This document shows, one piece after another, positions 1,169 to 17,307 of a DNA stretch of 31,667 nt. The notes below the pieces were generated by a model, which made no database searches, was not told the DNA's origin, and saw only the letters and a list, made by a program, of their open reading frames with translations. The stretch spans positions 1-31,667 of the IMG/VR virus record IMGVR_UViG_3300014050_000091; one strand, 5' to 3'. Origin of the DNA: a virus. How positions within the stretch are numbered: position 1 is the first letter of the stretch; each line of letters begins with the position of its first letter. A program made the position numbers and the translations under genes.

Positions 1169-2215
1169 ATGGCCACTCAGGACTACGCGGCTAGCGTCCA
1201 AGGCGTGGCGATTCGAGTCACACGACTCGACGCCTCTGGTAACTTGCTCACTAACGATGGTGACAGTTACACAACCTCGGCGTTTATGCGAGCATCATTT
1301 ACACCAGAGTACGAAGAAGGCGACGAGATTGTTGAAAAGGTAGCCGACGGAACTATTGGTGTTTCATATAAGGCTCCAGATACGCTCAAGCGCATCACAA
1401 TGGAATTGGCTATTACTGAGCCAGACCCAGAACTAACAGCACTTCTTTCTGGAGGTTTGTTACTTCGCAAGAACTTTGGAACTCTCGGAACACCAGCAAA
1501 TAAGAGCATCGGTTGGGCCGCACCAGCCGTTGGCGATAACCCAGCAGGTAATGGTGTTGCGCTAGAAGTTTGGTCATTTGCAGTAAAGGACGGAAAGCGT
1601 TCTGCTTCTCTTCCATACTTCTACTGGGTATTCCCATACGTCAAGTTGCGTCAATCAGGTGACCGTGTAATTGAAAACGGATTACTTGCTAACACATTTG
1701 AAGGTTATGGACTCGGTAACTCACTATTTGGTATCGGACCTGATGGCCGTTGGGAATACCCAGCAGCAACAGACCGTCCATACTCATACGCTCGTGCTTC
1801 ATGGGCTCCAACAGGTCTAAAGGGCTTCTACGACTGGTTCGATAACAAGACAGCAGTTGTTAACAACAAGTCTCTTACAACTAACGTTGCAAGCCTTACA
1901 ACAGCATCAGCACACGGATTCTCTACTGGACAGACAGTTGTTGTCGCTAACGTAGATTCTACTTTCAATGGTACATACACAATCACAGGAACTCCTGCTG
2001 CAAATGTATTTACTTATGCAAAGACAGCAACAAACGTTACATCAACTGCTGTAAGCCCAACAGGAACAGCAACACGCCAGCGTGGATACACAACTGTTAC
2101 AGATTACGCATACCAGTCATCAACAACTGGATATAACGTACCTGGAAGCAAGGATTACAACGCTGACCTTCCTCTTGACTTCATCATTGCGTCAAATCAG
2201 GACCCTGTAGCGTAA
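1169..2215 (+). CDS. Major tail tube protein with inserted beta module
   Basis: This 348-residue protein starts at ATG 1169 with AAGGAG about ten bases upstream. Residues 1-225 look like the actinophage major tail protein: 'ASFTPEYEEGDEIVEKVADG', 'ITMELAITEPDPELTALLSG', and 'FYWVFPYVKLRQSGDRVIEN'. Such proteins stack as rings to form the tail tube and surround the tape measure protein. Residues about 233-306 are an extra module with the core 'LTTASAHGFSTGQTVVV', shared with two downstream tail proteins; it is probably displayed on the tube surface. The gene lies before the neck genes rather than just before the chaperone, which is an unusual order. A large hairpin follows it. Confidence 0.7.
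   Translation: MATQDYAASVQGVAIRVTRLDASGNLLTNDGDSYTTSAFMRASFTPEYEEGDEIVEKVADGTIGVSYKAPDTLKRITMELAITEPDPELTALLSGGLLLRKNFGTLGTPANKSIGWAAPAVGDNPAGNGVALEVWSFAVKDGKRSASLPYFYWVFPYVKLRQSGDRVIENGLLANTFEGYGLGNSLFGIGPDGRWEYPAATDRPYSYARASWAPTGLKGFYDWFDNKTAVVNNKSLTTNVASLTTASAHGFSTGQTVVVANVDSTFNGTYTITGTPAANVFTYAKTATNVTSTAVSPTGTATRQRGYTTVTDYAYQSSTTGYNVPGSKDYNADLPLDFIIASNQDPVA
1867..2088 (+). other. Beta module copy 1 (in tail tube protein)
   Basis: The encoded segment runs from 'KSLTTNVASLTTASAHGF' through 'VVVANVDSTFNGTYTI' to 'NVFTYAKTATNV'. The same pattern (N-x-A-x-L-T-T, then AHG, then G-x-x-V, then a (D/N)G-x-Y/H step, then TFTY) occurs in the proteins at 8233 and 9404. From memory, similar phage modules are often labelled as FCCH-like in automatic annotation. 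Confidence 0.75.
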
Positions 2216-2227
2216 TAATTTATAGGG

Positions 2228-2279
2228 AGGCGGGCGACATTCCAGTCGTGTCATTAGTACACAATGGGGTCGTCCGCCT
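2228..2279 (+). terminator. Large GC-rich stem-loop after the tail tube gene
   Basis: Bases 2228-2238 (AGGCGGGCGAC) pair with 2269-2279 (GTCGTCCGCCT), giving 11 pairs including one G-U. Inside, CCA at 2242-2244 can pair with TGG at 2265-2267, and GTGT at 2248-2251 with ACAC at 2259-2262. The downstream strand is T-rich (TTCATTCTT) but has no clean T run. It could be a partial terminator or an mRNA-stabilising 3' structure after a highly expressed gene. The pairing is directly visible; the function is inferred. Confidence 0.5.
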
Positions 2280-2301
2280 TCATTCTTAAGATAGGAAAAC
2301 T

Positions 2302-3441
2302 ATGAGCAATTTATGGACAAACGTAGAAGACCTAGGTAACTACGCCAACTCAGAACATTCCTATGATGCTGTCAAGACTGCTTCATATCTTTTGTGGGCA
2401 ATGTCTGGTCGTAAATACAGCGGAACATCAACTGTTACAGAGCGTTATATCTCTGCTTTTGACCCATATCTTCGTGTGGGCGCTTCAACAATGAACTACA
2501 CCCCTGTACTTGTAAATGGTCAGGTTGAGAATATGCGTGTCAATGCATATGGACGATACAACGATACGGACTTTGCTGGAGATGGAACATCTTCTAACTC
2601 TCGTTTACGCCTTCGTGGCCGTAAGGTAGTAAAGATTCATACAGTTCGTGATATCAAGGGCAACATTGTTGACCCAACAAAGTATTACCTAATTGAGCAC
2701 TCTGTATTGCTTGGCTCTCCTGGAGCAAACTGGTCACCTACTAACGTAGAAGTAACTTACACATATGGAACAGAGCCTCCTACTGCTGGAAAAATTGCAG
2801 CCCGCGCTCTAGCAATTGAACTTATTAAGTTGTATGAGAATGATGATTCTTGCGCCCTACCTCAGCGAGTAACATCTATTGCTCGTCAGGGAGTTACTTA
2901 TACAGTTCTTGACAACCAAGAATTTATTGACGACCTCAAGACAGGTCTTTATGTTGTTGACCTATTTCTAAAAACAACTAACCCTGACAAGGCTCGTGCT
3001 CGTGCTCGTGTATTTACACCTGACCAGCCTCGTGCTCGCCGTATTACTCCTAAGCCATATCTTTTCACTGAAACAGCCTTCGACCTAAAAGTTCTTCCTA
3101 CTGGAGGAACTACAGATATTTATCTTGATGAAGTAAGCGGAGACTTCCTCCTCAACGACAATGCTTGGACAGTATCACTTACTGTTTCAGATTACACAAA
3201 TACTAAAACTGTAACAATTGCTAATGGGGCTACTCTCAACCGTGCTACTGGCAAGATTACTTTGAATGCTTCCTATAATGATATTTTGTCAATTATTGGT
3301 CCTCGTGAGCCAGGAAGTTATGACATCTATTGCACACGCCCAAGTCTGGGAAATCCTGCTGTTGATGAAGTAATCAATTTAGTTACAGCAAATGTCTCTA
3401 TCCAACTCAGTACAAGAACAGAAACAATCTATACTTTCTAG
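2302..3441 (+). CDS. Head-tail adaptor (connector) protein with C-terminal beta domain
   Basis: This 379-residue protein starts at ATG 2302 with a weak AGGAA upstream. Residues 1-245 resemble the actinophage head-to-tail adaptor: an early 'ASYLLWAMSGRKYSG' helix, 'WSPTNVEVTYTYGTEPPTAG', and 'LPQRVTSIARQGVTYTVLD'. These proteins form the ring beneath the portal. Residues about 255-379 form an extra beta-rich domain ('TDIYLDEVSGDFLLNDNAW', 'IIGPREPGSYDIYCTRP') not needed in the usual adaptor; it may be an immunoglobulin-like decoration. The family call is good for the N-terminal half and tentative for the tail. Confidence 0.65.
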   Translation: MSNLWTNVEDLGNYANSEHSYDAVKTASYLLWAMSGRKYSGTSTVTERYISAFDPYLRVGASTMNYTPVLVNGQVENMRVNAYGRYNDTDFAGDGTSSNSRLRLRGRKVVKIHTVRDIKGNIVDPTKYYLIEHSVLLGSPGANWSPTNVEVTYTYGTEPPTAGKIAARALAIELIKLYENDDSCALPQRVTSIARQGVTYTVLDNQEFIDDLKTGLYVVDLFLKTTNPDKARARARVFTPDQPRARRITPKPYLFTETAFDLKVLPTGGTTDIYLDEVSGDFLLNDNAWTVSLTVSDYTNTKTVTIANGATLNRATGKITLNASYNDILSIIGPREPGSYDIYCTRPSLGNPAVDEVINLVTANVSIQLSTRTETIYTF

Positions 3442-3464
3442 TACTAATCCAAGGAGCGACATAT

Positions 3465-3974
3465 ATGAATTTCGGTATTGACAAAGCGTCTATCAGCAGT
3501 GATGCAAAAAATCTTGCTGTATTTCTACAAACAATTTTAGATAGAGTAGGCGAAAATTTTGCTAAATACTCTATGCCTCTTCCAAGCCGTCAATATTGGA
3601 CTATGGGGCAGCCAGCATTGGATTGTGAACAAGTTGTTGTATCTTTTATACAGATGTATCTAGGTGCTCCTGGAGATGAAGCAACAGCACCACGCCGTGG
3701 ACAAGACCCACGCAGCGCAACAATTAATGTTTCAGTATCACGAAAGATTCCTGTTGTAGGGACTAATGGTCGTCCTCCAGCAGCAGAAACAATTCAAGAG
3801 GCTTCAGAGATTGCTGCATATGACTCTTGGATTCTTCTTGATATTGCTGCAAATGGTTTAGATGTATGGGTTGAAACAGGTCTAGGTCTTGGAGTAATTG
3901 CAACTGTAGAAGTCCGTGACCCTGATGGTGGAATTCAGACAACAGTTCTTACACTGACAGCAGCGGTTCCGTAA
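3465..3974 (+). CDS. Neck / tail-terminator-like protein
   Basis: This 169-residue protein starts at ATG 3465 after an AAGGAG. It contains 'CEQVVVSFIQMYLGAPGD', 'RSATINVSVSRKIPVV', and 'ASEIAAYDSWILLDIAANG', and ends in a beta-rich 'GGIQTTVLTLTAAVP' segment. This pattern is common in actinophage genomes between the adaptor and the HK97 gp10-like gene, where products act in head-tail joining or tail termination. No catalytic motif is seen. It overlaps the next gene by one base (TAATG), suggesting translational coupling. Assignment to tail terminator rather than stopper rests on context. Confidence 0.5.
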   Translation: MNFGIDKASISSDAKNLAVFLQTILDRVGENFAKYSMPLPSRQYWTMGQPALDCEQVVVSFIQMYLGAPGDEATAPRRGQDPRSATINVSVSRKIPVVGTNGRPPAAETIQEASEIAAYDSWILLDIAANGLDVWVETGLGLGVIATVEVRDPDGGIQTTVLTLTAAVP

Positions 3975-4357
3975 TGGCACACGTTGTATTTAGAGAAGCA
4001 GAATACAACTTTGTATTTGAATCTCCTTCAGGACCAGTTGGAAGATATCTTGCTAAAAGAGGCGCTGTAGTTATGGTTGCAGCAAAAGCACAGGTTGGCG
4101 TAAGGACTGGCGCACTTCGTGCATCTATTCATATGCGACACTCTCGTGATGTGAGAGGTCAGTATGTTCAGATTGGTTCTCCTCTCAACTATGCTTTGCT
4201 CCACCACGAAGGAACAAAACCTCACTTGATTAAAGCAAACAGAGCAACTGTTTTGCGCTATGTCAAGAGAGGGAGGGTGATGTATGCACACGCAGTTATG
4301 CACCCTGGAACAAAACCTAATAGATATCTAAAAGATAATCTTAGGCTAGTAAAATAG
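3974..4357 (+). CDS. HK97 gp10-like neck/tail completion protein
   Basis: This small basic 127-residue protein has the typical HK97 gp10-like layout: an N-terminal helix, then 'VGVRTGALRASIHMRH', then 'YALLHHEGTKPHLI', and a final 'HPGTKPNRYLKDNL'. The 'GTxPH' and 'HPGTKP' elements are the hallmark of this family, which works in the head-tail interface of siphoviruses. The ATG overlaps the stop of the previous gene by one base. Length fits the family. Confidence 0.75.
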   Translation: MAHVVFREAEYNFVFESPSGPVGRYLAKRGAVVMVAAKAQVGVRTGALRASIHMRHSRDVRGQYVQIGSPLNYALLHHEGTKPHLIKANRATVLRYVKRGRVMYAHAVMHPGTKPNRYLKDNLRLVK

Positions 4358-4358
4358 A

Positions 4359-4378
4359 TTTACTACAAAAGTAGTAAA
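4359..4378 (+). other. Perfect 8-bp hairpin after the gp10-like gene
   Basis: TTTACTAC at 4359-4366 and GTAGTAAA at 4371-4378 are perfect inverted copies around an AAAA loop, starting just after the stop codon. There is no T run behind it, so it is a weak candidate for a terminator. It could influence mRNA decay or expression of the chaperone gene that follows. Confidence 0.5.
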
Positions 4379-4408
4379 CAAAGACACAAGATAAGGAAAA
4401 AGAAGAAG

Positions 4409-4756
4409 ATGACACCAAGATTCAAAGATTTTGGAAATGGCGGACTCGTAGAAGTTGAACCGCTATCTTTCAAACTTCACGATGAAGAGTTTCGTTGTCT
4501 TCCACAGATTCAGGGAAAAGTTCTCCTTGATATGGTGGCAGATTCGCAGGGAGAAGACAATAAGTTAGCAGCAGAACTTATTAATCGTTTCTTTGCTAAA
4601 ACTCTTGAACCAGAAAGTTTTACACGTTTTGTAAATCTCCTTGAAAGCGAAAAAATTGTCTCCGTTGATACTCTCGGTGAAATTGTTTCGTGGATGGTGG
4701 AGCAATATTCATCGCGCCCTACGTTGGGGTCACAGGACTCACAGAGTGGGCAGTAG
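4409..4756 (+). CDS. Tail assembly chaperone, short form (G-like)
   Basis: This 115-residue acidic protein starts at ATG 4409 after a purine-rich stretch with AAGGAAAAAG. It has 'FRCLPQIQGKVLLDMVADSQ' and ends 'WMVEQYSSRPTLGSQDSQSG', the usual ending of actinophage chaperone short forms (helix, EQY, RPT, then a Ser/Gly tail). These chaperones hold the tape measure during tail assembly. It lies directly before the tape measure gene and overlaps a second open frame by 67 bases, as expected for a pair made by a programmed frameshift. Confidence 0.85.
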   Translation: MTPRFKDFGNGGLVEVEPLSFKLHDEEFRCLPQIQGKVLLDMVADSQGEDNKLAAELINRFFAKTLEPESFTRFVNLLESEKIVSVDTLGEIVSWMVEQYSSRPTLGSQDSQSGQ

Positions 4757-5148
4757 ACCTCTGGCCCTACGTTAACGGCAAAGCCCTTATGAATGGCCTA
4801 CAGTTATCTTCAATGGAGGCTAGCGATATGCTAGATGTAATCCACGTTATCTTTGAGGATGACCACACAAATCTCATAAGCGCTGAGCAGATTGATGCTA
4901 AACAAAAAGTACGAAGGATTGTTTATAAAGAATTTTATAACCGAAATCCTAAATACACCAGTGATTCTTTGCGAGATAATATACCTGACAAAGTTGAAAG
5001 TGACGGATTTTTTGGAGAAGCGATGGAAGAAGAAATTACTCCATTTGACCCAGCAAATGCGCCAGTCAAGCCTTACATAGCACCAACTAACGTTGATGCT
5101 GGTGCAGGTAAACCATTTGGTAGAGATATAGATGCCCCGCTTGGGTAA
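4690..5148 (+). CDS. Tail assembly chaperone, frameshifted extension (T-like)
   Basis: This frame is open from 4681 (a stop lies at 4678-4680) to a TAA at 5146-5148 and is in the -1 frame relative to the short chaperone. There is no good ribosome site for the GTG at 4690, so it is probably read only as a fusion after a -1 slip. The best candidate site is the GGGG run at 4726-4729, where the GGG codon at 4727 can re-pair one base back; the join would read 'SSRPTLG' then 'VTGLTEWAVDLW'. The extension has 'MEASDMLDVIHVIFEDDH' and an acidic, Pro-rich end. The slip site is inferred; the two-frame arrangement is seen. Confidence 0.7.
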   Translation: MDGGAIFIAPYVGVTGLTEWAVDLWPYVNGKALMNGLQLSSMEASDMLDVIHVIFEDDHTNLISAEQIDAKQKVRRIVYKEFYNRNPKYTSDSLRDNIPDKVESDGFFGEAMEEEITPFDPANAPVKPYIAPTNVDAGAGKPFGRDIDAPLG

Positions 5149-5170
5149 AGATGTTTGGAGGTGATGGCTT

Positions 5171-8100
5171 GTGGCAGTAGTTGGTGATGCATATGTGGTG
5201 GTCCGAGCCATCACAACAAATGTAAAAAGCGACATCCAAAAAGCATTCAGTGATGTTGACAAAATTGGTCAAAAAGCAGGCCAAGATATTAATAGAGGCA
5301 TCAAGCGCGGAATGCGTGGTGGTGGCGGTAATAACAACTTTCTTAGTGGACTAAGTTCTCAGTTTGGTGGGTTCATAAAAGAATCCGAAAGAGCAAAAGA
5401 AAAGTTCACCTCTCTTACACGTTTAGGTTATTTTTTAGCACCAGCAATTGTTGGAGTTGCAGCAGCAATAGGTAACTTAGGAGCAAACCTCCTAACATTA
5501 GTTGGTATTGCTGGTGCCTCACTACCAGCCTTGGCTGGACTTGGAACTGCATTATTTGGCTTAGGTCAAGTGGCACTTACATTAGGTGTTGCATTTCGTG
5601 GAGTATCTGCTGCTATCTCTGCTGGAATTAAAGCGCAGACAAAGACAGCATCTCAAGCAAGAGAAATTGCAAAAGCAGAGTTAGCGCTCAAGCGTGCAAA
5701 AGAAGATTTAGCAATTCTTGAGGAAGATGCAGCGTATCGCTCAATTAAATCACTCAAGGCAATTTCAGATGCTCAGCGAGAACTTAATTTAGAGCGTGAA
5801 AAAGCAAGAGAACAGTTACAGCAACTTGCATTTGATTCAGAAGATGCAGCAATTAATGAACAAAAGGCTGCTCTTGAGTTAGAGAAGGCTCGTGAAACTC
5901 TTGCTCGTGTTTCAGACCTTCCACCAAATTCTCGTGCTCGTAAAGAAGCAGAACTTGCTTTTGCCGAAGCAGACCTTAACTATCGCCGTGCAATAGATAA
6001 AAATAATGACCTTAAGAAAACAGAAGCCAAAAATGCTGCAATGGGTGACGGCTCTATAAAGGCTCAGGTTGAGGGTCAACAAAGTGTTATTGATGCTGTA
6101 AATGCTGTATCAGATGCTCAGCACGATGCTTATGTACAAAATCGTGATGATACAAAGGCTATTCAGCGAGCAAGAGAAGATATTGCTCAGCAGGAAAAGG
6201 ATTTAGATTATCTAAAGAAGGGTGGCGCTGCTGCTGATGCCTATGCAGATGCACTCAATAAATTATCAAAGTCTGCTCAGGAGTTTGTAAAATACATTGT
6301 AAGTCTTAAGGGTGTAGTGAAAGACCTACAAGAGGCTGCTGGAAAAGAATTCTTCCCGCTTCTACAGAAGGCTATTCAAAATCTTATTGACAACCTTCTT
6401 CCAACAATCAAGCCTCTTCTTACAGAGACAGGCCGTGTTCTTGGCGAGTTTGCTCTAAAACTATCTAAAGCATTTACTACACCAGAAAACCTCAAGCGTC
6501 TTGAGGCCATCTGGAAATCAAATAATATTTCATTGACTAATTTGGGCGATGCTGCTTCTAATTTAGTTACTGTCTTTATGATTCTATTCAAGGCAGCATC
6601 TCCTCTTGTTGAAGAATTTACTAAATATCTTGCAGTGCTTACTGGAAGTTGGAAAAAGACTTTAGAACTTCAAGAGGCAAATGGAGAACTTGCTAAGAAG
6701 TTTGAGATTGCTCGTGGAATTCTTAAAGACCTTGGAACAATTTTTGGCAATGTATTTGGTGGTCTTGGTAATATTATCAAAAATGTTACTGGTCCAGGTT
6801 CAGGTGGTCAGATTCTTCTTGACTACCTCAAGGATGTAACTGGCTCTTTTAGGAACCTAGAAAAAATTGATGGTAAGCCTCTCAAAGAATTCTTTGTTGG
6901 CGCTGCTGAGAATGGAAAAGAACTTCTCGGACTACTAGGAAAAATTGTCGGTGCACTTATTGGCCTTGCTGACGACCCTGGTGTCGGTGAGTTCTTCAAA
7001 ATTCTTAAGGGCGCTGTTGGAGACCTCGCTGCTATTGGTGGCAATCTAACTGCATCACTGCCGTCTTTTGGAACATTTGTTGCAAAACTTGTTGAATTTA
7101 CAAAGATTGTTACTGACAGTGGAACCATCAAAATCTTTTTTGATGTTTTATCTGCTGCTTTACAGAAAGTAATTGATTTCTTAAAAACAGACCTTGGTCA
7201 AAAAATTCTTGACATAACAAATAGAATTCTTCCATTTGTTGCTGCATTTGCTCTTATTGGAGAACAAGTTTTGTTCTTCTTCCAAGTGATTGTTGGTGCT
7301 ATTGCTGGTCCTATTAAAGCAGTTGCAAGTCTTGTTGAAGGCTGGGGTGCATTATCAGCAATTTTTGCTGAAGCAGGTCTCGCACTAGGACCTGTACTTG
7401 CAGTTTTTGCTGCTGTAGTTGCATCCCTAATCTTGATGTGGCAAAACAGTGAACTATTTAGAAATGCAGTAAAAGATTTAGTAGTTGGTGTTGGTACTGC
7501 TCTATATGACGCTTTTAAGAAAATATTTGACGCCCTAAGTATGCTTAAGCCTTTCTGGGAAGGCTTCAAGAATATATTTGGAATTATTGGAGACGCTATG
7601 GCTCCATTTATAATTATTATAAAAACAGTACTTGTTGTTGCTATAAATCTTATTGCAACCGCTATAGCAAGCGTAATTAAGGCTGTAGCACTTCTTGGTC
7701 CAGCATTTGAACTTGCTGTAAAAATAATTAGACCAATATTTGGTATTTTGGCAGGTCTTGCTACAGAATTTGCAAAGGGAATTAGTTTTATATTTGTTGG
7801 TCTATCAAAACTTATTGGTGGAGTATTTGATGGAGTTATTGGCGCAGTAAAGTTTGTTCTCAATGGCTTGATTGATTTATATAACAAAACTTTAGGAAAA
7901 CTGAATTTCAAACTTCCAGGGTTCTTGGGCGGAGGAACTCTTGGCTTCCCACAGATAACTAAACTTGCTCAGGGTGGAGTTGTTCAACCAACACCAGGTG
8001 GAATGATTGCTCAGATTGCTGAAGCAGGTCGTCCAGAGCGTGTAGAACCTCTTGATTCACAAGGACTATCGGTTCGTGACCGAGCAATTATTGCTGAACT

Positions 8101-8233
8101 ATCAGCAAAATCTGGTGGAACTGGTAATGCAATTAGTATTACTGTCAACCCTGCTCCTGGTATGAATGAGCGTGAACTTGCAGCAATTGTTTCTAGAGAA
8201 CTTTCCTATCAGTTGCGTAGAGGGGCCGCATAA
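5171..8233 (+). CDS. Tape measure protein
   Basis: This is a 1020-residue protein starting at GTG 5171, with GGAGG at 5157-5161. Residues about 86-155 are a long hydrophobic segment, about 160-375 are rich in coiled coil (repeated 'ELALKRAKEDLAILEED'-like heptads), and about 680-900 are strongly hydrophobic again. The C-terminus 'AEAGRPERVEPLD' is typical of siphovirus tape measures. The protein sets tail length and is ejected with DNA; at about 0.15 nm per residue the tail would be near 150 nm (inference). It follows the chaperone pair. No lysozyme or peptidase motif was seen in it. Confidence 0.93.
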   Translation: MAVVGDAYVVVRAITTNVKSDIQKAFSDVDKIGQKAGQDINRGIKRGMRGGGGNNNFLSGLSSQFGGFIKESERAKEKFTSLTRLGYFLAPAIVGVAAAIGNLGANLLTLVGIAGASLPALAGLGTALFGLGQVALTLGVAFRGVSAAISAGIKAQTKTASQAREIAKAELALKRAKEDLAILEEDAAYRSIKSLKAISDAQRELNLEREKAREQLQQLAFDSEDAAINEQKAALELEKARETLARVSDLPPNSRARKEAELAFAEADLNYRRAIDKNNDLKKTEAKNAAMGDGSIKAQVEGQQSVIDAVNAVSDAQHDAYVQNRDDTKAIQRAREDIAQQEKDLDYLKKGGAAADAYADALNKLSKSAQEFVKYIVSLKGVVKDLQEAAGKEFFPLLQKAIQNLIDNLLPTIKPLLTETGRVLGEFALKLSKAFTTPENLKRLEAIWKSNNISLTNLGDAASNLVTVFMILFKAASPLVEEFTKYLAVLTGSWKKTLELQEANGELAKKFEIARGILKDLGTIFGNVFGGLGNIIKNVTGPGSGGQILLDYLKDVTGSFRNLEKIDGKPLKEFFVGAAENGKELLGLLGKIVGALIGLADDPGVGEFFKILKGAVGDLAAIGGNLTASLPSFGTFVAKLVEFTKIVTDSGTIKIFFDVLSAALQKVIDFLKTDLGQKILDITNRILPFVAAFALIGEQVLFFFQVIVGAIAGPIKAVASLVEGWGALSAIFAEAGLALGPVLAVFAAVVASLILMWQNSELFRNAVKDLVVGVGTALYDAFKKIFDALSMLKPFWEGFKNIFGIIGDAMAPFIIIIKTVLVVAINLIATAIASVIKAVALLGPAFELAVKIIRPIFGILAGLATEFAKGISFIFVGLSKLIGGVFDGVIGAVKFVLNGLIDLYNKTLGKLNFKLPGFLGGGTLGFPQITKLAQGGVVQPTPGGMIAQIAEAGRPERVEPLDSQGLSVRDRAIIAELSAKSGGTGNAISITVNPAPGMNERELAAIVSRELSYQLRRGAA

Positions 8234-9378
8234 TGGCTATCAATCAAGCAAATAAAAATAAAATCACGGATAAGTCCTTATCCCCGCTACCATTTCCGCA
8301 TCTTACTGGTCTTAAACTTAAAGAAGATATTTCACTCAATGACTTTGTATTCAATCGTATTGATGAGTATGGCGTCTTATGGGTAGTGACAAATATTGAA
8401 GGCTGGTGGAATCCCCCATCTCCTGATATGCCAGATATCAAGCGCGGCTGGGATGATGGTTCTTACGATGTAAAGGGACGCTATCAGGCACGTCAGTTGA
8501 CTTTTGAGGGCTCTTTTCTTACAACAGACCCAACGCTGGTAGCCGCTGCTCGCTCTCGTCTTGTAGCCTCTATTAATCTTGTTCGTACTGGTGCTTGGCT
8601 AAAGACATCAGAGAATCCTACAAAGGCTTCTTATGTACGCCTTAGCGGAGAACCAAAGATTACAACTGTCAGCGCTCGTGGACGTACAGACTTTTCTATC
8701 GGTCTTCGTGCTGCTGACCCAATCAAATACGGTTGGAATGACCTAGATGAAAATGGTTATTTCTCTGAAGAAGTTCTTTGTAAGTCTGCTACTCCAGTAA
8801 GAACTGGAAAAGTAATTATCAATAATGATGGGAACATTGAAGTACCAACAATATTGACAGTTAGAGGACCTATTGTTGGTCCAGCAGTTATCTACGATGC
8901 CACTAATGACCAAGCAATTACGATAACAGGTAATCTTAGAAACACAACTACAAAATCTATTACTAGTCGTGTACTTAGCAATAGCGTCGCAACGCTAACA
9001 ACTTCAACTGCTCACGGTGTAGTTGTTGGAGATACTGTAACTATTTCTGGGGTAGGCACGGGCTATGACGGAGAGCAAGTAGTTATCTCTGCACCAACTT
9101 CAACAACATTTACATATGAAGTTCTTGCTGCAAACTCAGCGGCAACAACAGTATCTGGAACACTATCTTATGGACCAGATATTTTGGAAATTGATACCTA
9201 CAACAGAGATGTATTTCTCAATGGTAACTTTGAGGGAGCACGTCTAAAGTTAGAGGTATACAACGACTGGATTAAACTTGCACCAGGGTCAAATGAAATA
9301 AACTTCTATGACAATGGAGCAGCAAATAATTCAGCAGCAAAACTAACTATTCAATACAGACCAGGCTGGCTTGCTTAA
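8233..9378 (+). CDS. Distal tail (Dit-like) protein with inserted beta module
   Basis: This 381-residue protein overlaps the tape measure stop by one base. The N-terminal part has 'GVLWVVTNIEGWWNPPSPD' and 'RYQARQLTFEGSFLTTDPT', as in actinophage minor tail proteins that form the Dit ring at the tail tip. 'VSARGRTDFSIGLRAADPIK' follows. The end ('GSNEINFYDNGAANNSAAKL') resembles Dit C-terminal beta strands. Between them, residues about 241-315 hold one copy of the module shared with the tail tube and hub proteins. Position between tape measure and hub supports the role. Confidence 0.75.
   Translation: MAINQANKNKITDKSLSPLPFPHLTGLKLKEDISLNDFVFNRIDEYGVLWVVTNIEGWWNPPSPDMPDIKRGWDDGSYDVKGRYQARQLTFEGSFLTTDPTLVAAARSRLVASINLVRTGAWLKTSENPTKASYVRLSGEPKITTVSARGRTDFSIGLRAADPIKYGWNDLDENGYFSEEVLCKSATPVRTGKVIINNDGNIEVPTILTVRGPIVGPAVIYDATNDQAITITGNLRNTTTKSITSRVLSNSVATLTTSTAHGVVVGDTVTISGVGTGYDGEQVVISAPTSTTFTYEVLAANSAATTVSGTLSYGPDILEIDTYNRDVFLNGNFEGARLKLEVYNDWIKLAPGSNEINFYDNGAANNSAAKLTIQYRPGWLA
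8955..9178 (+). other. Beta module copy 2 (in Dit-like protein)
   Basis: Encodes 'LSNSVATLTTSTAHGVVVGD', then 'VTISGVGTGYDGEQVVI', then 'PTSTTFTYEV'. It aligns by eye with the tail tube copy and with hub copy 5 over the whole length, while the flanking Dit sequence has no counterpart in those proteins. This points to a mobile, inserted domain. Confidence 0.75.
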
Positions 9379-9403
9379 ATAAAAACGACTTGGAGAGACG
9401 TAA

Positions 9404-12388
9404 ATGGCATTACATTCTATTGATACACCACAGTATCGCTATTACCTTGCCGATTTACTGACCAATCAAATTATTACTGAAATACCTTTTACAGGTGTCA
9501 CCTACGAGCGTGCTCTTAGTAAGGCAGGAGCATTTCACGGAACAATTCCAGTAATTGATGCAACTAAGTCTCTCAATCTATATGAGAGCACTATGCCAGG
9601 AAAGACTGCTCTGTATGTCCTTCGTAATGGGGTTTGTGTTTGGGGAGGAATTATTTGGGGACGTCAATACTCTCCTAACAATAAAACTCTTCAAGTAGAT
9701 GGCACCGAGTTCCTCAGTTACTTTTACCATCGCTCAGTTTGGCAGACCCTTTACTATGGCTCAGAAGGCGTCTACTGCTCTAAATACTCCGCTAATGGAA
9801 CAACTGCAACAGTATTTACAGATGTAGAACACGGCTTTAGCGTTGGAGATAAAGTAAGAGTAAGAACCCTCAATAGCGCTCTCAATGGTGACCACGTTAT
9901 TCAGAGCAAGACTCCAGCAAGTTTTACCTTTGCTGTGACAAACGGGGCTGTTCTCAAGGAGAGTCCATCTAGTACAGGTTTTGCCAGAACTATTGTTGAT
10001 ACTTACGATATTGCTAGAGACCTCATTGGATATGCAGCAGAGGACTTTTCTACCCTTGCATTTCAAAATGATGAGATAAAACCAGCAAACGATTTAGAAT
10101 ACTCAGTATCAACAAAGCAGATGACTTCTGGCATTGCGACAATTACAACAACTTTGCCTCACGACTTGATTTATGGTCAGCAAGTACAACTTGTTGATGT
10201 TGACCCTTTGGTCAACGGCTATCAAATAATTACAGCAATACCGTCTTCTACTACATTCAAAGTCTCTCCTGCTGGAGTTTCTTCTAGTTTTTCTTCAACT
10301 GCTGTAACACCTTTGACAACATACAATGTCACATCGGCAGAGATAACTAACAATGTTGTAAATCTAACTAAGAAATCCTCTGCTAACAATGTTGTCACCC
10401 TTACAACAGAGTCTGCTCACGGGATTGCGGTGGGAGATTATGTATCTATCTCTAATGTATCAAACTACGATACTTTTACAAAAACTGGTTCTGCTGCTCA
10501 GGGGAGTTATGTAATTACACTTTCCGATACAACATCACTTCTTGCTGGAATGAATGTGTCAGGTATTGGAATTCCAGGAGATGCTGTTGTCTACTCAATC
10601 TCTGGAAACACTGTACAACTGACTCAGAGCACTACAACTGCTGTCTCTGGGACAATTACTTTTACTCAGCAATCAGTAATCAATGGCTCTTATTATGTAA
10701 CAGATGTACCATCAACTACAAAGTTTAGTTTTGTAAAAACAACACCTACTTTGGCAGAGACTCCAATTACCAAGTTTGGTGACATTCTTACTTATGCACT
10801 GACAGCAAACACTGCTAAAACAGCATTTGTACTTACTGGCATCAACGAACAAGTTGGTATTGAGAATAGAACTATCTATCTTGTAAGAGGTCAGACTTAC
10901 TCGTTTTCTATCAATGCAAACTCTAATAGAGTGTGGATTCAAACTACTGGTGGAGCGTACAATGCAACCAGTGCTTATAGTGATGGCGTGACAAATAATG
11001 GTGCTTCTACTGGAACAATAACATTTACTGTACCAAAAACAGCACCTTCAACTCTATATTTTCAAGGACAAACAACTACAACAATGACAGCAACTATTGC
11101 CATTGTTGACTATGGACAAGTTGCATACAAGAGCGCAGTTCTAACAACATCTACACCTCACGGGCTTACCGCAGGAAAGAGTATTGTTGTTGAGAATGTT
11201 GGTGCAGATTATGACGGGACACATACGGTTTCTTCCGTAGTTGACTCAACAACTATCAAATTCAACTCATCTTCACTTCTTACAGCGGCAGCAGAGGCTG
11301 TATTTGGTGGAACAATCAAATGGGGTGGAAGAGCAGTTGCTGGAACATATGGAGCCTTCTCTGGAAACTCTGACCCAGATATTGGTGCTACCGCAGACCT
11401 AAGCGGAAAATATATTGGTGTCTCTCAGCAAATTTATCGCGGCTCTGATTTACGCTCTGTTGGTGAAATATTAGAAGAGTTCTCTAAAGACCTCAACGGA
11501 TTTGAGTACCGTATTGACTGCGACTTCCAAAATGGACAATTCCTTCGTACATTTACTTTTGTACCTTTTATTGACCCTCCACAAAAGGTATCAGTAATCT
11601 CAAAAAGACTTACTTCTAATATTGCTACTTTGACTACAGCCTCTGCTCACGGGTTGACTGTAGGTCAAGAAATTGTTGTTAGTGATGTTGGTCTTTACTT
11701 TGATGGCACACAAACAGTACTTGCCACACCGACATCAACTACCTTTACATTTCAATCCTATACTAATGATGTTCCAGGAACACCTTGCTTTGGGTATATT
11801 GGACTTGTTCACCCGCTGAGTGTTCTTGGCGCAGATAAATTTGTATTTGAATATCCAGGTAATGTTCTTGACTTTAGTTTGCAAGAGAGCGCTGAAAACT
11901 CAGCAACTCGTATGTGGGTTGCTGGAAATACAGATGGCCTTGATAACAATGCAAGTCAGCCATATGCTGCATCTACCTCTACGGATATGTTGGATTTAGG
12001 TTGGCCGCTTCTTGACCAAGTAGAGTCCAAAAACGATAACGCTACAACCGCTTATGGTGAAAGCGCTCTTTACTCTTATGCTCAAGACTTTGCTGGAGAA
12101 GCAAGACCACCAGAGGGACAATTTAGTATCTCTATCAACGGCTCCATCGGGCCTTATGTAGGTGACTTTTTGCCTGGAGATTGGTGCTCCATAATCATTG
12201 ACGATAATTTTGTACGAGAACGACTTGCTAGTGATTTAGAGCCTCGTGGAGATGTTATTGTCCGTAAGATTATTGGATATAAAGTTTCTGTACCTGATAC
12301 TCCAAGTTTTCCTGAAAAAGTTGATTTAGAATTAATCAGTGAGTGGAAAGAAGACCGTCGTATCTCTACTCTAAAGATTACGCAGTGA
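9404..12388 (+). CDS. Baseplate hub / Tal-like minor tail protein with many inserted modules
   Basis: This 994-residue protein starts at ATG 9404 after GGAGAG. Residues 1-120 ('FHGTIPVIDATKSLNLYEST', 'ALYVLRNGVCVWGGIIWGRQ') and about 660-725 plus 810-994 ('RSVGEILEEFSKDLNGFEYR', 'GDFLPGDWCSIIIDDNFVRE') resemble the hub proteins of actinophage tails (gp37-like of phage ReqiPepy6, from memory). Between them sit five copies of the AHG module (about residues 124-196, 235-303, 322-456, 575-641, 728-801), an extra module inside the third copy, and a cupredoxin-like domain at about 460-571. The inserts make the protein far longer than usual. It probably forms the tail tip and contacts the host. Confidence 0.72.
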   Translation: MALHSIDTPQYRYYLADLLTNQIITEIPFTGVTYERALSKAGAFHGTIPVIDATKSLNLYESTMPGKTALYVLRNGVCVWGGIIWGRQYSPNNKTLQVDGTEFLSYFYHRSVWQTLYYGSEGVYCSKYSANGTTATVFTDVEHGFSVGDKVRVRTLNSALNGDHVIQSKTPASFTFAVTNGAVLKESPSSTGFARTIVDTYDIARDLIGYAAEDFSTLAFQNDEIKPANDLEYSVSTKQMTSGIATITTTLPHDLIYGQQVQLVDVDPLVNGYQIITAIPSSTTFKVSPAGVSSSFSSTAVTPLTTYNVTSAEITNNVVNLTKKSSANNVVTLTTESAHGIAVGDYVSISNVSNYDTFTKTGSAAQGSYVITLSDTTSLLAGMNVSGIGIPGDAVVYSISGNTVQLTQSTTTAVSGTITFTQQSVINGSYYVTDVPSTTKFSFVKTTPTLAETPITKFGDILTYALTANTAKTAFVLTGINEQVGIENRTIYLVRGQTYSFSINANSNRVWIQTTGGAYNATSAYSDGVTNNGASTGTITFTVPKTAPSTLYFQGQTTTTMTATIAIVDYGQVAYKSAVLTTSTPHGLTAGKSIVVENVGADYDGTHTVSSVVDSTTIKFNSSSLLTAAAEAVFGGTIKWGGRAVAGTYGAFSGNSDPDIGATADLSGKYIGVSQQIYRGSDLRSVGEILEEFSKDLNGFEYRIDCDFQNGQFLRTFTFVPFIDPPQKVSVISKRLTSNIATLTTASAHGLTVGQEIVVSDVGLYFDGTQTVLATPTSTTFTFQSYTNDVPGTPCFGYIGLVHPLSVLGADKFVFEYPGNVLDFSLQESAENSATRMWVAGNTDGLDNNASQPYAASTSTDMLDLGWPLLDQVESKNDNATTAYGESALYSYAQDFAGEARPPEGQFSISINGSIGPYVGDFLPGDWCSIIIDDNFVRERLASDLEPRGDVIVRKIIGYKVSVPDTPSFPEKVDLELISEWKEDRRISTLKITQ
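9773..9991 (+). other. Beta module copy 3 (hub repeat 1)
   Basis: The most diverged copy: 'ATVFTDVEHGFSVGDKVRV', then 'LNGDHVI', then 'SFTFAV'. The AHG core has become EHG but the spacing to G-x-x-V and to the NGD step is kept. Confidence 0.6.
10106..10311 (+). other. Beta module copy 4 (hub repeat 2)
   Basis: Encodes 'IATITTTLPHDLIYGQQVQL', 'LVNGYQII' and 'SSTTFKVSPAG'. The AHG core is PHD here. Confidence 0.6.
10367..10770 (+). other. Beta module copy 5 (hub repeat 3), interrupted by another module
   Basis: The first half, 'NVVTLTTESAHGIAVGDYV', and the second half, 'VINGSYYVTDVPSTTKFSF', are separated by about 65 residues (about 10480-10675). The insert 'GSYVITLSDTTSLLAGMNVS' ... 'SGIGIPGDAVVYSISGNTVQ' resembles a different beta module common in phage and bacterial surface proteins. 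It is a domain nested inside a domain. Confidence 0.65.
10781..11113 (+). other. Cupredoxin-like domain, apparently without metal ligands
   Basis: The encoded stretch has 'TIYLVRGQTYSFSINANSNR', 'GVTNNGASTGTITFTVPKTA' and 'STLYFQGQTTTTMTATI'. From memory, related domains in aquatic phage and bacterial proteins read with a His after the NAS step and a YYxC-x2-H-x2-M end. Here those positions are Asn/Arg and Gly/Thr, so copper binding is unlikely and the fold may be kept for structure or binding. Confidence 0.5.
11126..11326 (+). other. Beta module copy 6 (hub repeat 4)
   Basis: Encodes 'SAVLTTSTPHGLTAGKSIVV', 'GADYDGTHTVSSV' and 'STTIKFNS'. Core is PHGL. Confidence 0.65.
11587..11806 (+). other. 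Beta module copy 7 (hub repeat 5)
   Basis: Encodes 'LTSNIATLTTASAHGLTVGQ', 'EIVVSDVGLYFDGTQTV' and 'PTSTTFTFQS'. This copy is closest to the consensus and to the tail tube copy. Confidence 0.72.
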
Positions 12389-12397
12389 GGATAGACA

Positions 12398-13615
12398 ATG
12401 CCAAGTAGACGCAGAAGTGCTAATAAAAACTTAGGTAATAACCTTGCAGAGGTGCAGAGACGCCTTCGCTACCTTGAGCGTCGCCCTGTCCGCAGCAAGT
12501 TAGGCTCTAAAGTTGTTACTGGTGCTGCTATTGCTCCAAACTCAGTAACACCTGACCAAGTTACCTTTGGTACAACAATTGCTAGTACTGACCCTAATAT
12601 AACTGCAAGCATACAAAATCCAAAAGATGGTCTTGTAATTGCTAACCCAGAGACTGGTCAAACTCAGGTTTACTCTGAACAATATACATCTTATATTTCA
12701 GTAAGTGACCCTGTTGCAGCAGGGGACGCATTTGATGCATACAACTATGCTGGAACTGCACAAGAGACAGCAACAACGGCTCAAAGAACTGCTGATGGTA
12801 AAAATACTGTTTATAGACAGTCAAGTGCACCTACAGGAGGAACCTACGCTGTAGGAGATGTTTGGTTTAATACAAGCGCTGATAATCAAATTAATCGTTG
12901 GAGTGGCTCTGCTTGGTCACCAGTTGCTCTTGGTGATAATGCATTAGCAAGTATTTCAGCAAATAAAATAACTGCTGGAACAATTGATGCAAGAGTAATT
13001 ACAGTTTCAAACTTAGATGCAGGTAATATAACTGTTGGTGAACTTTCTGCAAGCAGAATTGGTGCTGGAAATATTACTGCAACTATCTCTATTAAAGGTC
13101 CAACTATTACTGGTGGAACTATAAGAACAGATGAAGAAGGCAGAAGAAGAATTGCTATTACAGACACTGACGATATTATTTTTTATGGAGATACTGGTGC
13201 CAGAAGCGGAACTGTGACTAGTATTGGTGGTACTTGGTCAGGTGATACTGAAAATCCTTATGTAATCCCTGGTGGAATTATGATTTATGGAGGAAGTGCT
13301 GTCGTGTCTAATGGTTCAACAACATATCCTTCTATTGTTGCTGCTGCTGACTCTGTTTATATGTATGGAGACTCTGTTTCACGTTTTTCTGCAAAAAATA
13401 ATTTGCTAGGTATGTATGGTCCTGAAGCCTACATATATAACGACATAACAACAATTTACACTGGATATGGAACTACTGGTGGTAGACCTTGGCATTTGTA
13501 CCTTCAGGGAAGACTTCGCCTCTCCGAGGGACCAGATGGTCCATTATTGTATGGCTCTGGTATTCCAACAACACCTGGTTCATATGATGGTCAAGTTTGT
13601 TTTAGGTATGTATAA
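12398..13615 (+). CDS. Minor tail / tail fibre protein
   Basis: This 405-residue protein starts at ATG 12398 with GAGGA at 12387-12391 overlapping the hub stop codon. It has a basic N-terminus ('MPSRRRSANKN'), a short helix ('LAEVQRRLRYLERR'), a 'GDVWFNTSADNQINRW' segment (typical of phage fibre carbohydrate-contact or stalk proteins), then the repeating 'ISANKITAGTIDARVITVS' and 'LDAGNITVGELSASRIGAGN' type found in tail tip fibres. The C-terminal part is Gly/Tyr-rich beta. Likely part of the host-contact apparatus. The family name is not certain. Confidence 0.65.
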   Translation: MPSRRRSANKNLGNNLAEVQRRLRYLERRPVRSKLGSKVVTGAAIAPNSVTPDQVTFGTTIASTDPNITASIQNPKDGLVIANPETGQTQVYSEQYTSYISVSDPVAAGDAFDAYNYAGTAQETATTAQRTADGKNTVYRQSSAPTGGTYAVGDVWFNTSADNQINRWSGSAWSPVALGDNALASISANKITAGTIDARVITVSNLDAGNITVGELSASRIGAGNITATISIKGPTITGGTIRTDEEGRRRIAITDTDDIIFYGDTGARSGTVTSIGGTWSGDTENPYVIPGGIMIYGGSAVVSNGSTTYPSIVAAADSVYMYGDSVSRFSAKNNLLGMYGPEAYIYNDITTIYTGYGTTGGRPWHLYLQGRLRLSEGPDGPLLYGSGIPTTPGSYDGQVCFRYV

Positions 13616-13617
13616 AT

Positions 13618-16600
13618 ATGGCTGGATATGTATGGAGTACAAGCACTAATACTTGGAAACCACTTACTTCTGGGTATAAGTGGAATAGTAGTGATTCTAG
13701 TTGGAAAAAACTTACAACTGGATATGTGTGGAGCAGCAGTACCAATACTTGGAAACTAATGTTTAGTTCTGGAACTTTTCTTCCAGAAATTAGAAGTAGC
13801 CTTACAGGGTTGCCTATAACTGTCAGAGATGTTGGCGTCTCTATGACAGGCTATCGTGGTGACACTGCTATTGGTTCTTATGCTTATCAGTGGCAATATA
13901 ACTCTGATGCAAATCAAGATGAAGTTTTTTGGAATAACCAATTTGGTACAAATAACTCTGGAACTCTTGTAAGCACTAACTTAACTACAAACTACACAAC
14001 AGATACTACTGACCTAAATGTTCTTAATTTTGCTCCATACATTTTATGGATGAGATTCAGAGTTACTCGTTCTGGGGAAACTCAGTACAGTCAAGTAATT
14101 AGAATTACTAAAAGACAGCCATCAGTTCGTTCTGGTACAACTCCTTTTGTACAGGGAACACGATATCTTGGTTCTGGTAAGTTTGACCCGTTACAAAAAA
14201 ATCCCTATATCAATGACTCTATTCAACATATTTCTAGTTGGACACTAACAACAACTCTTTCAGGCGATACAAGACCAGATTATTATATTTACACCTGGAC
14301 AACTGGCTCTGGAATTTATACACAGGACTCAAGAACTCTTGATACTGACCCATCTGCGCCTAAAGTTGCAAATGTTTATATTGTAAAGTTTCAAGATTTA
14401 TTAGCACCAATTAGTGTTGATGCTGTTGCTTACACAAGTAACCCAACAAATACTAGTGCTGGTGTGATTACTACAAGAAATGTAAGTGATGGAGTTCTTC
14501 AAGCCCCTAAAAATTTAAGTCTTACTTTTTTTGGTGGAAGATTTAATGGCTCTTGGGATGCATCAGATGGCGGTATTGATACTCAAATTATTTATTATGA
14601 CGTTATATTAGAAAGAGACACTGTTGAAGAGTACAGAGTCAGAAATACTCAGGGGCTATCTTTTACTTACCTTCCTACTCTAGAAGGAACATATAGATTC
14701 AAAGTAATTGCAAAGCAAAGTGGTAGTTCAGATAAAACTTCTGAATACTCTAATGAGTACCTTATTGAGCCACCCAAAGCATTTACTTACACTATTGCAA
14801 ATGTGACTGCAACTGATTACATTCCAGGAGATTTTACAATTAACTCTCCTACAGAAAAAGCAACAGTTGCAAACTCATACGACTGGACTTGGACCGCTTC
14901 TTCTGGGGCATCAAGATATACAACAACACTTATTAAACCTAGCGGGCTTGAGAACTCCGAATATAGTGTTGGAACAGCGCAGACAGACTATTATAATATT
15001 TACGAGAGTGGTTTATATAAATTTAATGTTTTTGCATACAATGAAACAAAAAATTATGTAAGAATTTCTTGGACTAAACCTGCAAATACAACTGCTGTAA
15101 GTTATAAAATTACTTATGGAATAAATTCATACTACAGTGGACCTCCATACTACTCTTCAAGTGTTGTAACTGTTACTGCTGGAGATGTTGGCTATATAGA
15201 TATTCCTTTTGATACACCAACATTTACTGCTTATTTTACTGGAAGAGATATCACTATTTCATCAGTAATTGCTTATTCTCAAGATGCTCAAACTGGGCTA
15301 CAGCGCACGGGGACTGCTAACTTTCCTATTTCAACAACAATAAATGCTAAATCTGTAAGAAAAAAGACTCTTGAAACTAATTTAACCTACTATGTAGTAA
15401 GCCCTGGAACAGTAACAGTGAACGGTATAGCAGAGCCAAATCAAATTCTTAGTTATTCAAAAAATAATGATTGGTCTCCACCTGCTACACAGTCTGGTTG
15501 GACTTTTACTCAGCAGTGGAAAAAAACAAGAATTTATCCAAGTTCTTTAACTGATATAAACGTAACTACTGCTGCAACTACTATTCCTACAACTTCCGAT
15601 GTGGGTGAGTATTTTAATGTTGTAGTTACTGGAACATATAAAGGAACTACTGTAGTTGCCCCCTTTGCTTCCTCCACTCAGATAGTGCCAGGACCTCCAT
15701 CTTTTACTCTTGCTGACTCTTTTTCTCAAAAGATAAATGTAACTTCTATCGTCTCTGCTGGAGGTTCTTTCTTCTTTGGAAGTTATGACACTGGTACGGG
15801 CACTGCAACAATTGCTGAAACAGCAGCAACCTCATTTCAAACAGCAACAGTTCAGCCTGGTCCTCGCAGCGTTACATTATTTGGAAGAGCAAAGAAAAGT
15901 TCTTTAGGAATACAAGATATTATTGACGGAACACGCTCAACAACAAATCCAATCTCAATTGCTGACCCTCCACAGGCTACAGGACAACAGCGTTTTGTAA
16001 CCTGTCTTTCTATTTTCAGAGGTTCTGCTCTTACTGTTGCTACAAATGGTTTTGTTGGTTATAGGGCTGGTTCTTCTCCAACTGGAGTGACTATACCTCC
16101 AACTGGAAATTATTTGAATATTGCAAATAGAGACATTGTTCAAACAAATCTTTACACATATAGTAATGCTGATGGAGTTTGGATTAGATTCCAGGGCTAT
16201 CAGTATTTAGCATCATCAAAACTTATTGATTACCAAGTCTATTTCCCTTGGCAAAGTGCTAGTGCTTATGTTTATTTTGTAAGAAATGACCTAGATAACT
16301 ATAGGTCTAATGATGCAAATATCAACTTTGGCACTGTTGCAACTACATACCTAGGAAATGGCTACTATCAAGCCCAGAATCTTTTGAATACAGCGATAAT
16401 GGTAAGTCGTCCTTCTACAACAGCAGGCTCTCTTGATGATGGCTATACAGATTTTACGCCAACTGCTCCTGGTGTTGCAGTTACTTGGGGTACTCCTACC
16501 AGTGTGTCAAATGGTTTTACAGTTCCTATTTCAAACTGGAATGCGGGGGTTGATTCTTCTTGGACAATCACTTTCAATGTGACACCAGCAATTTATAGCC

Positions 16601-17307
16601 CTACTGCTGTATTAAACGCATCAACTGGAGTTGTTACTGTAAGTCTAAACGGTGCTAGTAGAACTGGAACAATTACTGCAACTAGTAGTAAGACTGGGTA
16701 CGACTCTGCTACATCTCAGAGTGTATCTGGTACATCTCTAAACTCTGCTCCAGGAAGTTTTAGTGGTGGTGTCAGCATAAGTAAGAGTGGAAGTACTTCT
16801 GGAACCCTTACAATGAATTCAACTGTTTCAAGTTTTGGTACACCTGCTGGAACTCAGAACTGGTATTGGAATGCTCCTGGCTATCCTGGTTACCACCCAA
16901 ACTCATCAACATATAGTTTTGACTCTGGAGATGCTGGAACAACAATTACTGTTTATTCATACTTAACATCTCCTAGTGGGGAGTGGGCACAGGTAAATTC
17001 TGGTACGGCCTCTATTACTCTTCCAGCAATTGTCACTATACCTTCAGTACCTGGACAACCTAGTGTTAGCCCTTCAGGTTTTGCTTCTTGGGTGGCAGTG
17101 AATGGTGCAACAGGCTACACAATTCAATGGCAGCGTGCTTCTTCACAGTCAGGAACAAGCCCAACAGGAACTACTACAACAGATGTGGGGGCCTCAACTG
17201 GTTATCAAATCCCTGCTGTATCTGGAAAAATTTGGGCAAGAGCAAGAGTTAGCGCAAGAAACTCTGCTGGACCATCAGCATACTCCCCGTATTCGGCTTG
17301 GTCATAG
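13618..17307 (+). CDS. Large tail fibre / adhesin-like protein with W-repeats and Fn3/Ig-like domains
   Basis: This 1229-residue protein starts at ATG 13618, two bases after the previous stop, with little ribosome site, so coupling is likely. Residues 3-50 are three 16-residue repeats of the type 'GYVWSSSTNTWK'. Fn3-like segments follow ('APKNLSLTFFGGRFNGSWDA', 'GTYRFKVIAKQSGSSDKTSE') with further beta domains around residues 400-700, Tyr-rich regions near 850-930, and a C-terminal Fn3-like domain ('PGQPSVSPSG', 'YTIQWQRASSQSG', 'IWARARVSARNSAG'). Thr, Ser and Gly dominate. It is probably the main host-binding fibre. No enzymatic depolymerase motif was recognised. Confidence 0.7.
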   Translation: MAGYVWSTSTNTWKPLTSGYKWNSSDSSWKKLTTGYVWSSSTNTWKLMFSSGTFLPEIRSSLTGLPITVRDVGVSMTGYRGDTAIGSYAYQWQYNSDANQDEVFWNNQFGTNNSGTLVSTNLTTNYTTDTTDLNVLNFAPYILWMRFRVTRSGETQYSQVIRITKRQPSVRSGTTPFVQGTRYLGSGKFDPLQKNPYINDSIQHISSWTLTTTLSGDTRPDYYIYTWTTGSGIYTQDSRTLDTDPSAPKVANVYIVKFQDLLAPISVDAVAYTSNPTNTSAGVITTRNVSDGVLQAPKNLSLTFFGGRFNGSWDASDGGIDTQIIYYDVILERDTVEEYRVRNTQGLSFTYLPTLEGTYRFKVIAKQSGSSDKTSEYSNEYLIEPPKAFTYTIANVTATDYIPGDFTINSPTEKATVANSYDWTWTASSGASRYTTTLIKPSGLENSEYSVGTAQTDYYNIYESGLYKFNVFAYNETKNYVRISWTKPANTTAVSYKITYGINSYYSGPPYYSSSVVTVTAGDVGYIDIPFDTPTFTAYFTGRDITISSVIAYSQDAQTGLQRTGTANFPISTTINAKSVRKKTLETNLTYYVVSPGTVTVNGIAEPNQILSYSKNNDWSPPATQSGWTFTQQWKKTRIYPSSLTDINVTTAATTIPTTSDVGEYFNVVVTGTYKGTTVVAPFASSTQIVPGPPSFTLADSFSQKINVTSIVSAGGSFFFGSYDTGTGTATIAETAATSFQTATVQPGPRSVTLFGRAKKSSLGIQDIIDGTRSTTNPISIADPPQATGQQRFVTCLSIFRGSALTVATNGFVGYRAGSSPTGVTIPPTGNYLNIANRDIVQTNLYTYSNADGVWIRFQGYQYLASSKLIDYQVYFPWQSASAYVYFVRNDLDNYRSNDANINFGTVATTYLGNGYYQAQNLLNTAIMVSRPSTTAGSLDDGYTDFTPTAPGVAVTWGTPTSVSNGFTVPISNWNAGVDSSWTITFNVTPAIYSPTAVLNASTGVVTVSLNGASRTGTITATSSKTGYDSATSQSVSGTSLNSAPGSFSGGVSISKSGSTSGTLTMNSTVSSFGTPAGTQNWYWNAPGYPGYHPNSSTYSFDSGDAGTTITVYSYLTSPSGEWAQVNSGTASITLPAIVTIPSVPGQPSVSPSGFASWVAVNGATGYTIQWQRASSQSGTSPTGTTTTDVGASTGYQIPAVSGKIWARARVSARNSAGPSAYSPYSAWS
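13624..13767 (+). repeat. Three tandem 48-bp / 16-residue W-repeats
   Basis: Units at 13624-13671, 13672-13719 and 13720-13767 encode 'GYVWSTSTNTWKPLTS', 'GYKWNSSDSSWKKLTT' and 'GYVWSSSTNTWKLMFS'. Each has two Trp in the same place, as in beta-hairpin repeats of fibre attachment regions. Confidence 0.85.

Follow-up and report, generated by a model that had tools for sequence, protein, structure and literature searches.

A predicted beta-barrel module on three tail proteins of a phage that appears to nest within itself in related phages

Introduction

Optional beta domains on phage tails, single domain insertions and recursive insertion are already known. Ig-like and Fn3 decorations are beta domains carried outside the tail; for the Ig-like domains of tubes, a help in cell-surface contact has been proposed, and the Ig domain of the lambda tube touches its neighbours (review PMC8718954). 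Evolved Dits, which also expose beta modules outside the tail and carry carbohydrate-binding modules, are reported to aid adsorption to exopolysaccharide (PMC10688798). Of the three polysialic acid sites of the K1F endosialidase, one lies in its barrel (PMC12632334). As for recursive insertion, a survey of 2.7 million domains published in 2026 named Si3 of cyanobacterial RNA polymerase as the deepest case, with six levels, and the rpoC1/rpoC2 split correlates with the elaboration of Si3 (PMC13114784).

We describe here a small beta module present on the tube, the Dit and the hub-like protein of one phage, and in self-inserted order in its relatives. Like the Ig-like and Fn3 decorations it is optional, being filled in some tubes and Dits and empty in others; unlike them it has another fold, occurs as a single domain type on tube, Dit and hub, and inserts into itself. 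It shares its fold and its location in a phage tail protein with the endosialidase barrel (PF12195; 1v0e, 3gvk, 4hiz; 23-32% identity over the barrel), but it comes without the catalytic propeller, is repeated many times in each virion and occurs in self-nested stacks. The HG...G signature of the module's first half is common to the E1 FCCH domain (PF16190), whereas the module's hosts are tube, Dit and hub and no E1 enzyme is present. In Si3 (SBHM domains, 8emb), too, small beta domains are nested recursively, and a gene split accompanies the nesting (PMC13114784). Si3 has six levels against seven to nine in the phage Dit nests and belongs to another protein, fold family and gene, and in the phages the gene is split within the nest.

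Results

The window analysed is a linear viral record of 31.7 kb (31,667 nucleotides, 42% GC), whose ORFs encode, in order, a capsid-side protein, the tube, an adaptor, a neck protein, a chaperone, the tape measure, the Dit, a hub-like protein and more tail proteins. To detect the module we used a profile made of 70 modules from other contigs and of zero window sequences; all bit scores of window copies below refer to it, and all features lie on the plus strand. The major tail (tube) protein (348 aa, 1169..2215; phrog_792 major tail protein, E 4e-19) is 65% identical to the tubes of Microbacterium phages and carries one module at residues 231-303, in its C-terminal extension (1859..2077, 84 bits). 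The distal tail protein (Dit, 381 aa, 8233..9378) passes the curated cutoff of PF22768 for the C-terminal domain of SPP1-type Dits (SPP1_Dit, 36.4 bits, cutoff 25), and its module occupies residues 243-313 (8959..9171, 83 bits). The following protein (994 aa, 9404..12388) is related to minor tail proteins of phage DSL-LC01 and of Microbacterium phages, and we infer from gene order, in particular from its position after the Dit, that it is the hub. It contains five modules: copy 1 at residues 126-195 (9779..9988, 50 bits), copy 2 at 235-307 (10106..10324, 60 bits), copy 3 in two pieces, copy 4 at 571-641 (11114..11326, 60 bits) and copy 5 at 733-800 (11600..11803, 76 bits). The first half of copy 3 (A half, residues 322-354, 10367..10465, 33 bits) is separated from the second (B half, residues 425-457 with a profile match over 417-457, 10676..10774, 16.5 bits) by a foreign insert of about 70 residues (355-424, 10466..10675) that is absent in three relatives.

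The six continuous copies scored 50-84 bits (E 2e-26 to 9e-16) and hub copy 3, being split, scored lower, while the top score among 900 shuffled copies of the tube, Dit and hub proteins was 7.7 bits. The profile matches of the continuous copies cover residues 231-301 of the tube, 243-313 of the Dit and 126-191, 235-307, 572-638 and 731-795 of the hub. The A half of hub copy 3 was absent from the first seed profile and was nevertheless detected at E 2.6e-6. No module was found in the remaining ORFs of the window. When the Dit protein was compared with its own record by tblastn, it matched exactly six other sites (E 4e-15 to 8e-5), of which the tube holds one and the hub frame five. Since all these matches sit within Dit residues 219-324, mostly the module, the three proteins have no detectable shared sequence beyond their inserts. 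A first-pass annotation made from the DNA letters had proposed one module present seven times in three tail proteins (once in the tube, once in the Dit and five times in the hub) that are otherwise unrelated, and both points are borne out by the profile, which recovered all seven segments, and by tblastn. Its description of a module of about 70 residues suits six copies; the copy at 10367-10774 is interrupted. Between hub copies 3 and 4 we also noted a segment of about 100 residues (10790-11100; ALTANTAKTAFVLTGINEQ...VRGQTYSFSINANSNRVWIQTTGG), common to cyanophage baseplate or fibre connector proteins (phrog_677, residues 246-570; cyanophage tblastn matches 452-554), which by eye has a cupredoxin-like look.

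The fold of the window Dit module was predicted with AlphaFold from an alignment of 76 diverse modules. The model is a closed 7-strand beta-barrel (pLDDT 95.3, pTM 0.82) with three strands before the [ND]G step, which form the A half, and four after it, which form the B half. Foldseek ranked phage endosialidase barrels first (probability 1.00, TM 0.64-0.69) and the E1 FCCH domain of UBA1/UBA6 second (probability mostly 0.8-1.0). At the sequence level, PF16190 (E1_FCCH) matched 18 of the 76 modules at E <= 0.1 and the hub protein at E 4.4e-6 with 27.1 bits, under the curated cutoff of 29.5, and PF12195 (End_beta_barrel) matched four of the 76 (best E 0.0016), the window Dit module not being among them. 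In a profile search of the PDB, 4hiz was matched at E 0.0065 across nearly the whole module. TAL-effector matches from the same search were rejected, as they consist of many pieces of 14-17 residues worth about 2-3 bits each and summed over repeats. Over the 76 modules only H19 and G38 are near-invariant, and neither in this alignment nor among the window copies was a conserved surface site shared by the modules found. Because of this, and because non-phage E1 FCCH domains match the same profile, the T-T..AHG...G..V / NG / TTFTF pattern is best read as a signature of the fold and not as a ligand site. The common ligand that the first-pass annotation had suggested thus receives no hint from conservation.

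We then compared sites with and without the module. The tube of the Actinomycetia phage DSL-LC01 cleanly lacks it with well conserved flanks, and the tubes of three further relatives (L188, L268 and L269) show the same clean empty site; one A half followed by one B half (AB) is present in 146 of 172 complete tubes. In the Dits of L188, L170 and L148, the site that the module occupies in the window Dit is likewise empty. Given these clean empty sites, sequence comparison indicates that the module is a true insert in the tube and Dit families, and the opposite reading named in the first-pass annotation, that the segments are ordinary parts of each family in all relatives, does not hold. The module was found nowhere in the genomes of Gordonia phage GodonK and Arthrobacter phage Racecar, which have homologous tubes, and no Ig or Fn3 family match was found in the window tube, Dit and hub. 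A tblastn search with one module returns close kin only and carries little information on distribution. In DSL-LC01, further copies lie in proteins of 2853 and 825 residues among collagen-like genes. About ten modules lie in the 2853-aa protein (8222-16783 of that record, L500), for which the annotation 'ALK tyrosine kinase receptor' is very probably an error; the protein is probably a fibre or an adhesin.

Placed in tube, Dit and hub, the module would be displayed on the tail exterior. By analogy, glycan binding is plausible, since among solved folds the endosialidase barrel, with its polysialic acid site, comes closest. Taking this site together with the evolved Dits and with the proposal made for Ig-like tube domains, a weak, many-copy contact with envelope polysaccharide combined with spacing appears to be the most likely role. 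Its main rival is a purely structural one, in which the module has no ligand and stiffens or protects the tail through tube-ring contacts and Dit/hub bracing, or lengthens stalks. The lack of a shared surface site beyond the near-invariant H19 and G38, the same fold signature in the E1 FCCH of cellular enzymes, the spacer-like nests that carry other domains, such as the Fn3 of the gene after the Dit, and the contacts of the lambda Ig domain with its neighbours (PMC8718954) all speak for this reading. It is at odds with the variable number of modules and their absence in some close relatives, which make them dispensable for assembly, and with a nearest solved fold that binds glycan. We regard a purely structural role as a serious possibility, though the less probable one.

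Hub copy 3 is interrupted in the loop that joins the A and B halves. In L201, L218 and L017, the A and B halves of this copy are contiguous without foreign insert; the A/B loop of the barrel is itself an insertion site. The insert of the window (10466-10675, GS..GSYVITLSDTTSLLAGMNVSGIGIPGDAVVYSISGNTVQL) is a small beta module of another kind, which by eye seems present in some tubes as well (e.g. L177, L171). Copy 3 with its foreign insert is the only such case in the window, which has no self-nest. In relatives, the A/B loop holds another copy of the module itself, giving the order A..AB..B with equal counts, as seen in 16 loci and in one pair of filled and empty sites. These 16 are the complete loci in which the Dit gene is split. 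The number of A halves equals that of B halves in 16/16, at seven, eight or nine, and five B halves always lie in the next gene (16/16), which ends with the missing Dit C-terminus in 15 of them. Thus, Pumpernickel and Zooman have seven A halves for two B halves in the Dit and five in the next gene (7 = 2+5), as do the metagenomic L390, L424, L152, L147 and L173; the balance is 8 = 3+5 in Big4, A3Wally and Cece and in the metagenomic L350, L371, L369 and L352, and 9 = 4+5 in the metagenomic L144 and L145. All units were detected by profiles in Pumpernickel, Zooman, Big4, A3Wally, L390, L350, L371 and L369, and one to a few weak units were assigned by eye in each remaining locus. The balanced Dit loci are homologous, so that the 16 loci do not count as 16 independent events.

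The extra pair of Big4, A3Wally and Cece is made of the innermost A and the first B, which form one contiguous AB. It is absent in Zooman and Pumpernickel between the same conserved A7/B7 flanks. The hubs of Pumpernickel (gp97) and L173 have six A halves followed by six B halves in one gene, with weak units assigned by eye, and automatic counts in 17 hubs gave five to seven A halves. In cyanophage S-CAM7, checked for nests, we found scattered A and B units only. Some tubes (L271, L278, L319, L320, L331, L333 and L144; 422-524 aa) carry two or more modules in AABB-like strings, and nesting may also occur on the tube.

The six-level nest of the L390 hub (483 aa) was modelled with AlphaFold from 10 sequences only, with a pLDDT of 86.8 overall, above 85 across most A and B units, and a pTM of 0.69. 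Its top PDB match by E-value is 8emb, Si3 of cyanobacterial RNA polymerase (E 1.4e-6, Foldseek probability 0.54, TM 0.10); with these last two values, the match supports a similar string of barrels and not a superposable structure. Among viral models, the nest matched a 1247-aa protein (46% identity) as well as numerous tail and baseplate proteins of cyanophages. No correlated evolution of the mirror pairs A(i)/B(i) was seen (nested 0.02, permutation mean 0.00, SD 0.08) in a test based on few sequences and on a unit alignment that is poor in some rows. This negative result, together with the homology of the Dit loci, by which equal counts would be partly inherited, fits the alternative of tandem half-repeats, with one solenoid made of A halves and another of B halves, their equal numbers being a coincidence or a mark of shared ancestry. 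That alternative has to face A counts that vary (7, 8, 9) with B counts varying with them, an extra unit that is a contiguous AB at the centre where relatives show an empty site, hubs that separately reach 6 = 6, an AB pair that forms one barrel in the single module, and a confident model of the six-level nest. We consider it improbable and retain self-nesting of complete barrels.

In the cultured Microbacterium phages, a run of A halves in the Dit gene is followed by two B halves or by three, after which the gene stops and the Dit C-terminus is missing. This C-terminus stands at the end of the next gene, together with five B halves; the next gene opens with an Fn3 domain region. L369 is the exception among the complete loci: its next gene runs on after the five B halves, and the Dit C-terminus is not at its end. 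Overall, 20 of 179 Dit ORFs have a closed 3' end but no C-terminus, and 19 of these 20 end in B units. The junctions vary. A Shine-Dalgarno-like sequence (AAGGA, GGAGG or similar) precedes the start by 9-24 nt in L008, L010, L013-L015, L350, L371 and L390; at others, stop and start are 0-6 nt apart, and the frames differ in some. From these features, the sequences point to two polypeptides as the likely products of the split Dit. Read-through of the stop codon was rejected as a general cause of the split, because several junctions show a spacer together with a Shine-Dalgarno-like sequence and the frame changes at several. At some junctions, a TAG stop is followed 3-6 nt on by the in-frame ATG of the next gene (L173, L349, L424, L352, L147) or reads TAG TAA (L144/L145); at these junctions, in contrast to those of the Microbacterium phages, translation may restart in a coupled manner or partly read through. 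In L165 (81-1500), the Dit ORF ends early and the next in-frame ORF resumes the module array, which suggests a stop mutation or a sequencing error of the contig.

For each window copy, the best matches occupy the corresponding site of other phages, with identities of about 52-78%, and on this comparison the copies are old and not recent duplicates. A recent spread inside this phage, by duplication between tail genes, would account for the presence of one type of module in three genes of a single genome, but it is rejected as highly improbable since the continuous window copies are only 20-42% identical to one another and same-site copies elsewhere are closer. The idea of a spreading domain put forward in the first-pass annotation therefore stands as far as one mobile domain in three sequence-unrelated proteins is concerned, and falls for a spread within this phage.

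Discussion

Altogether, we propose the following explanation, which as a whole we believe to be on the probable side. In this actinobacterial siphophage, an autonomous barrel of about 70 residues, of the group formed by the endosialidase barrel and E1 FCCH, has entered surface loops of the tube, the Dit and the hub. In relatives, complete barrels have inserted repeatedly into the A/B loop of older barrels, giving rise to A(n)B(n) nests of six levels in hubs and seven to nine in Dits, and the Dit gene has been broken inside the nest. Each A(i) would pair with B(i) at mirror depth, so that in the nest double strands would link the barrels into a rod, and the two products of the split Dit may come together again by completing five split barrels and by adding the last strand of the Dit. 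On the tube, the Dit ring and the hub, the barrels would bind envelope polysaccharide weakly and in many copies, and would serve as spacers that hold further domains, e.g. Fn3, away from the tail.

Two elements of this explanation concern the nests in particular: that the module prefers its own A/B loop as an insertion site and builds rods seven to nine levels deep, and that in one lineage the Dit has become a ring subunit made of two polypeptides closed like a zipper. Both together seem to us quite probable. In the open-licence literature, we found no description of nests in which a single module is stacked seven to nine levels deep and the gene is broken inside, and nothing on point concerning FCCH in phages, nested tail modules or phage Pumpernickel.

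For annotators, an 'E1 FCCH' match in a phage does not imply ubiquitin chemistry. The nest is carried by the cultured Microbacterium phages Pumpernickel, Big4, A3Wally, Zooman and Cece, which makes it directly testable. If the explanation is true, the nest would exceed the six-level extreme of the survey and would be common to two gene products, and these tails would offer a clean case of recursive insertion that builds stalks and of a protein that is split without losing its assembly.
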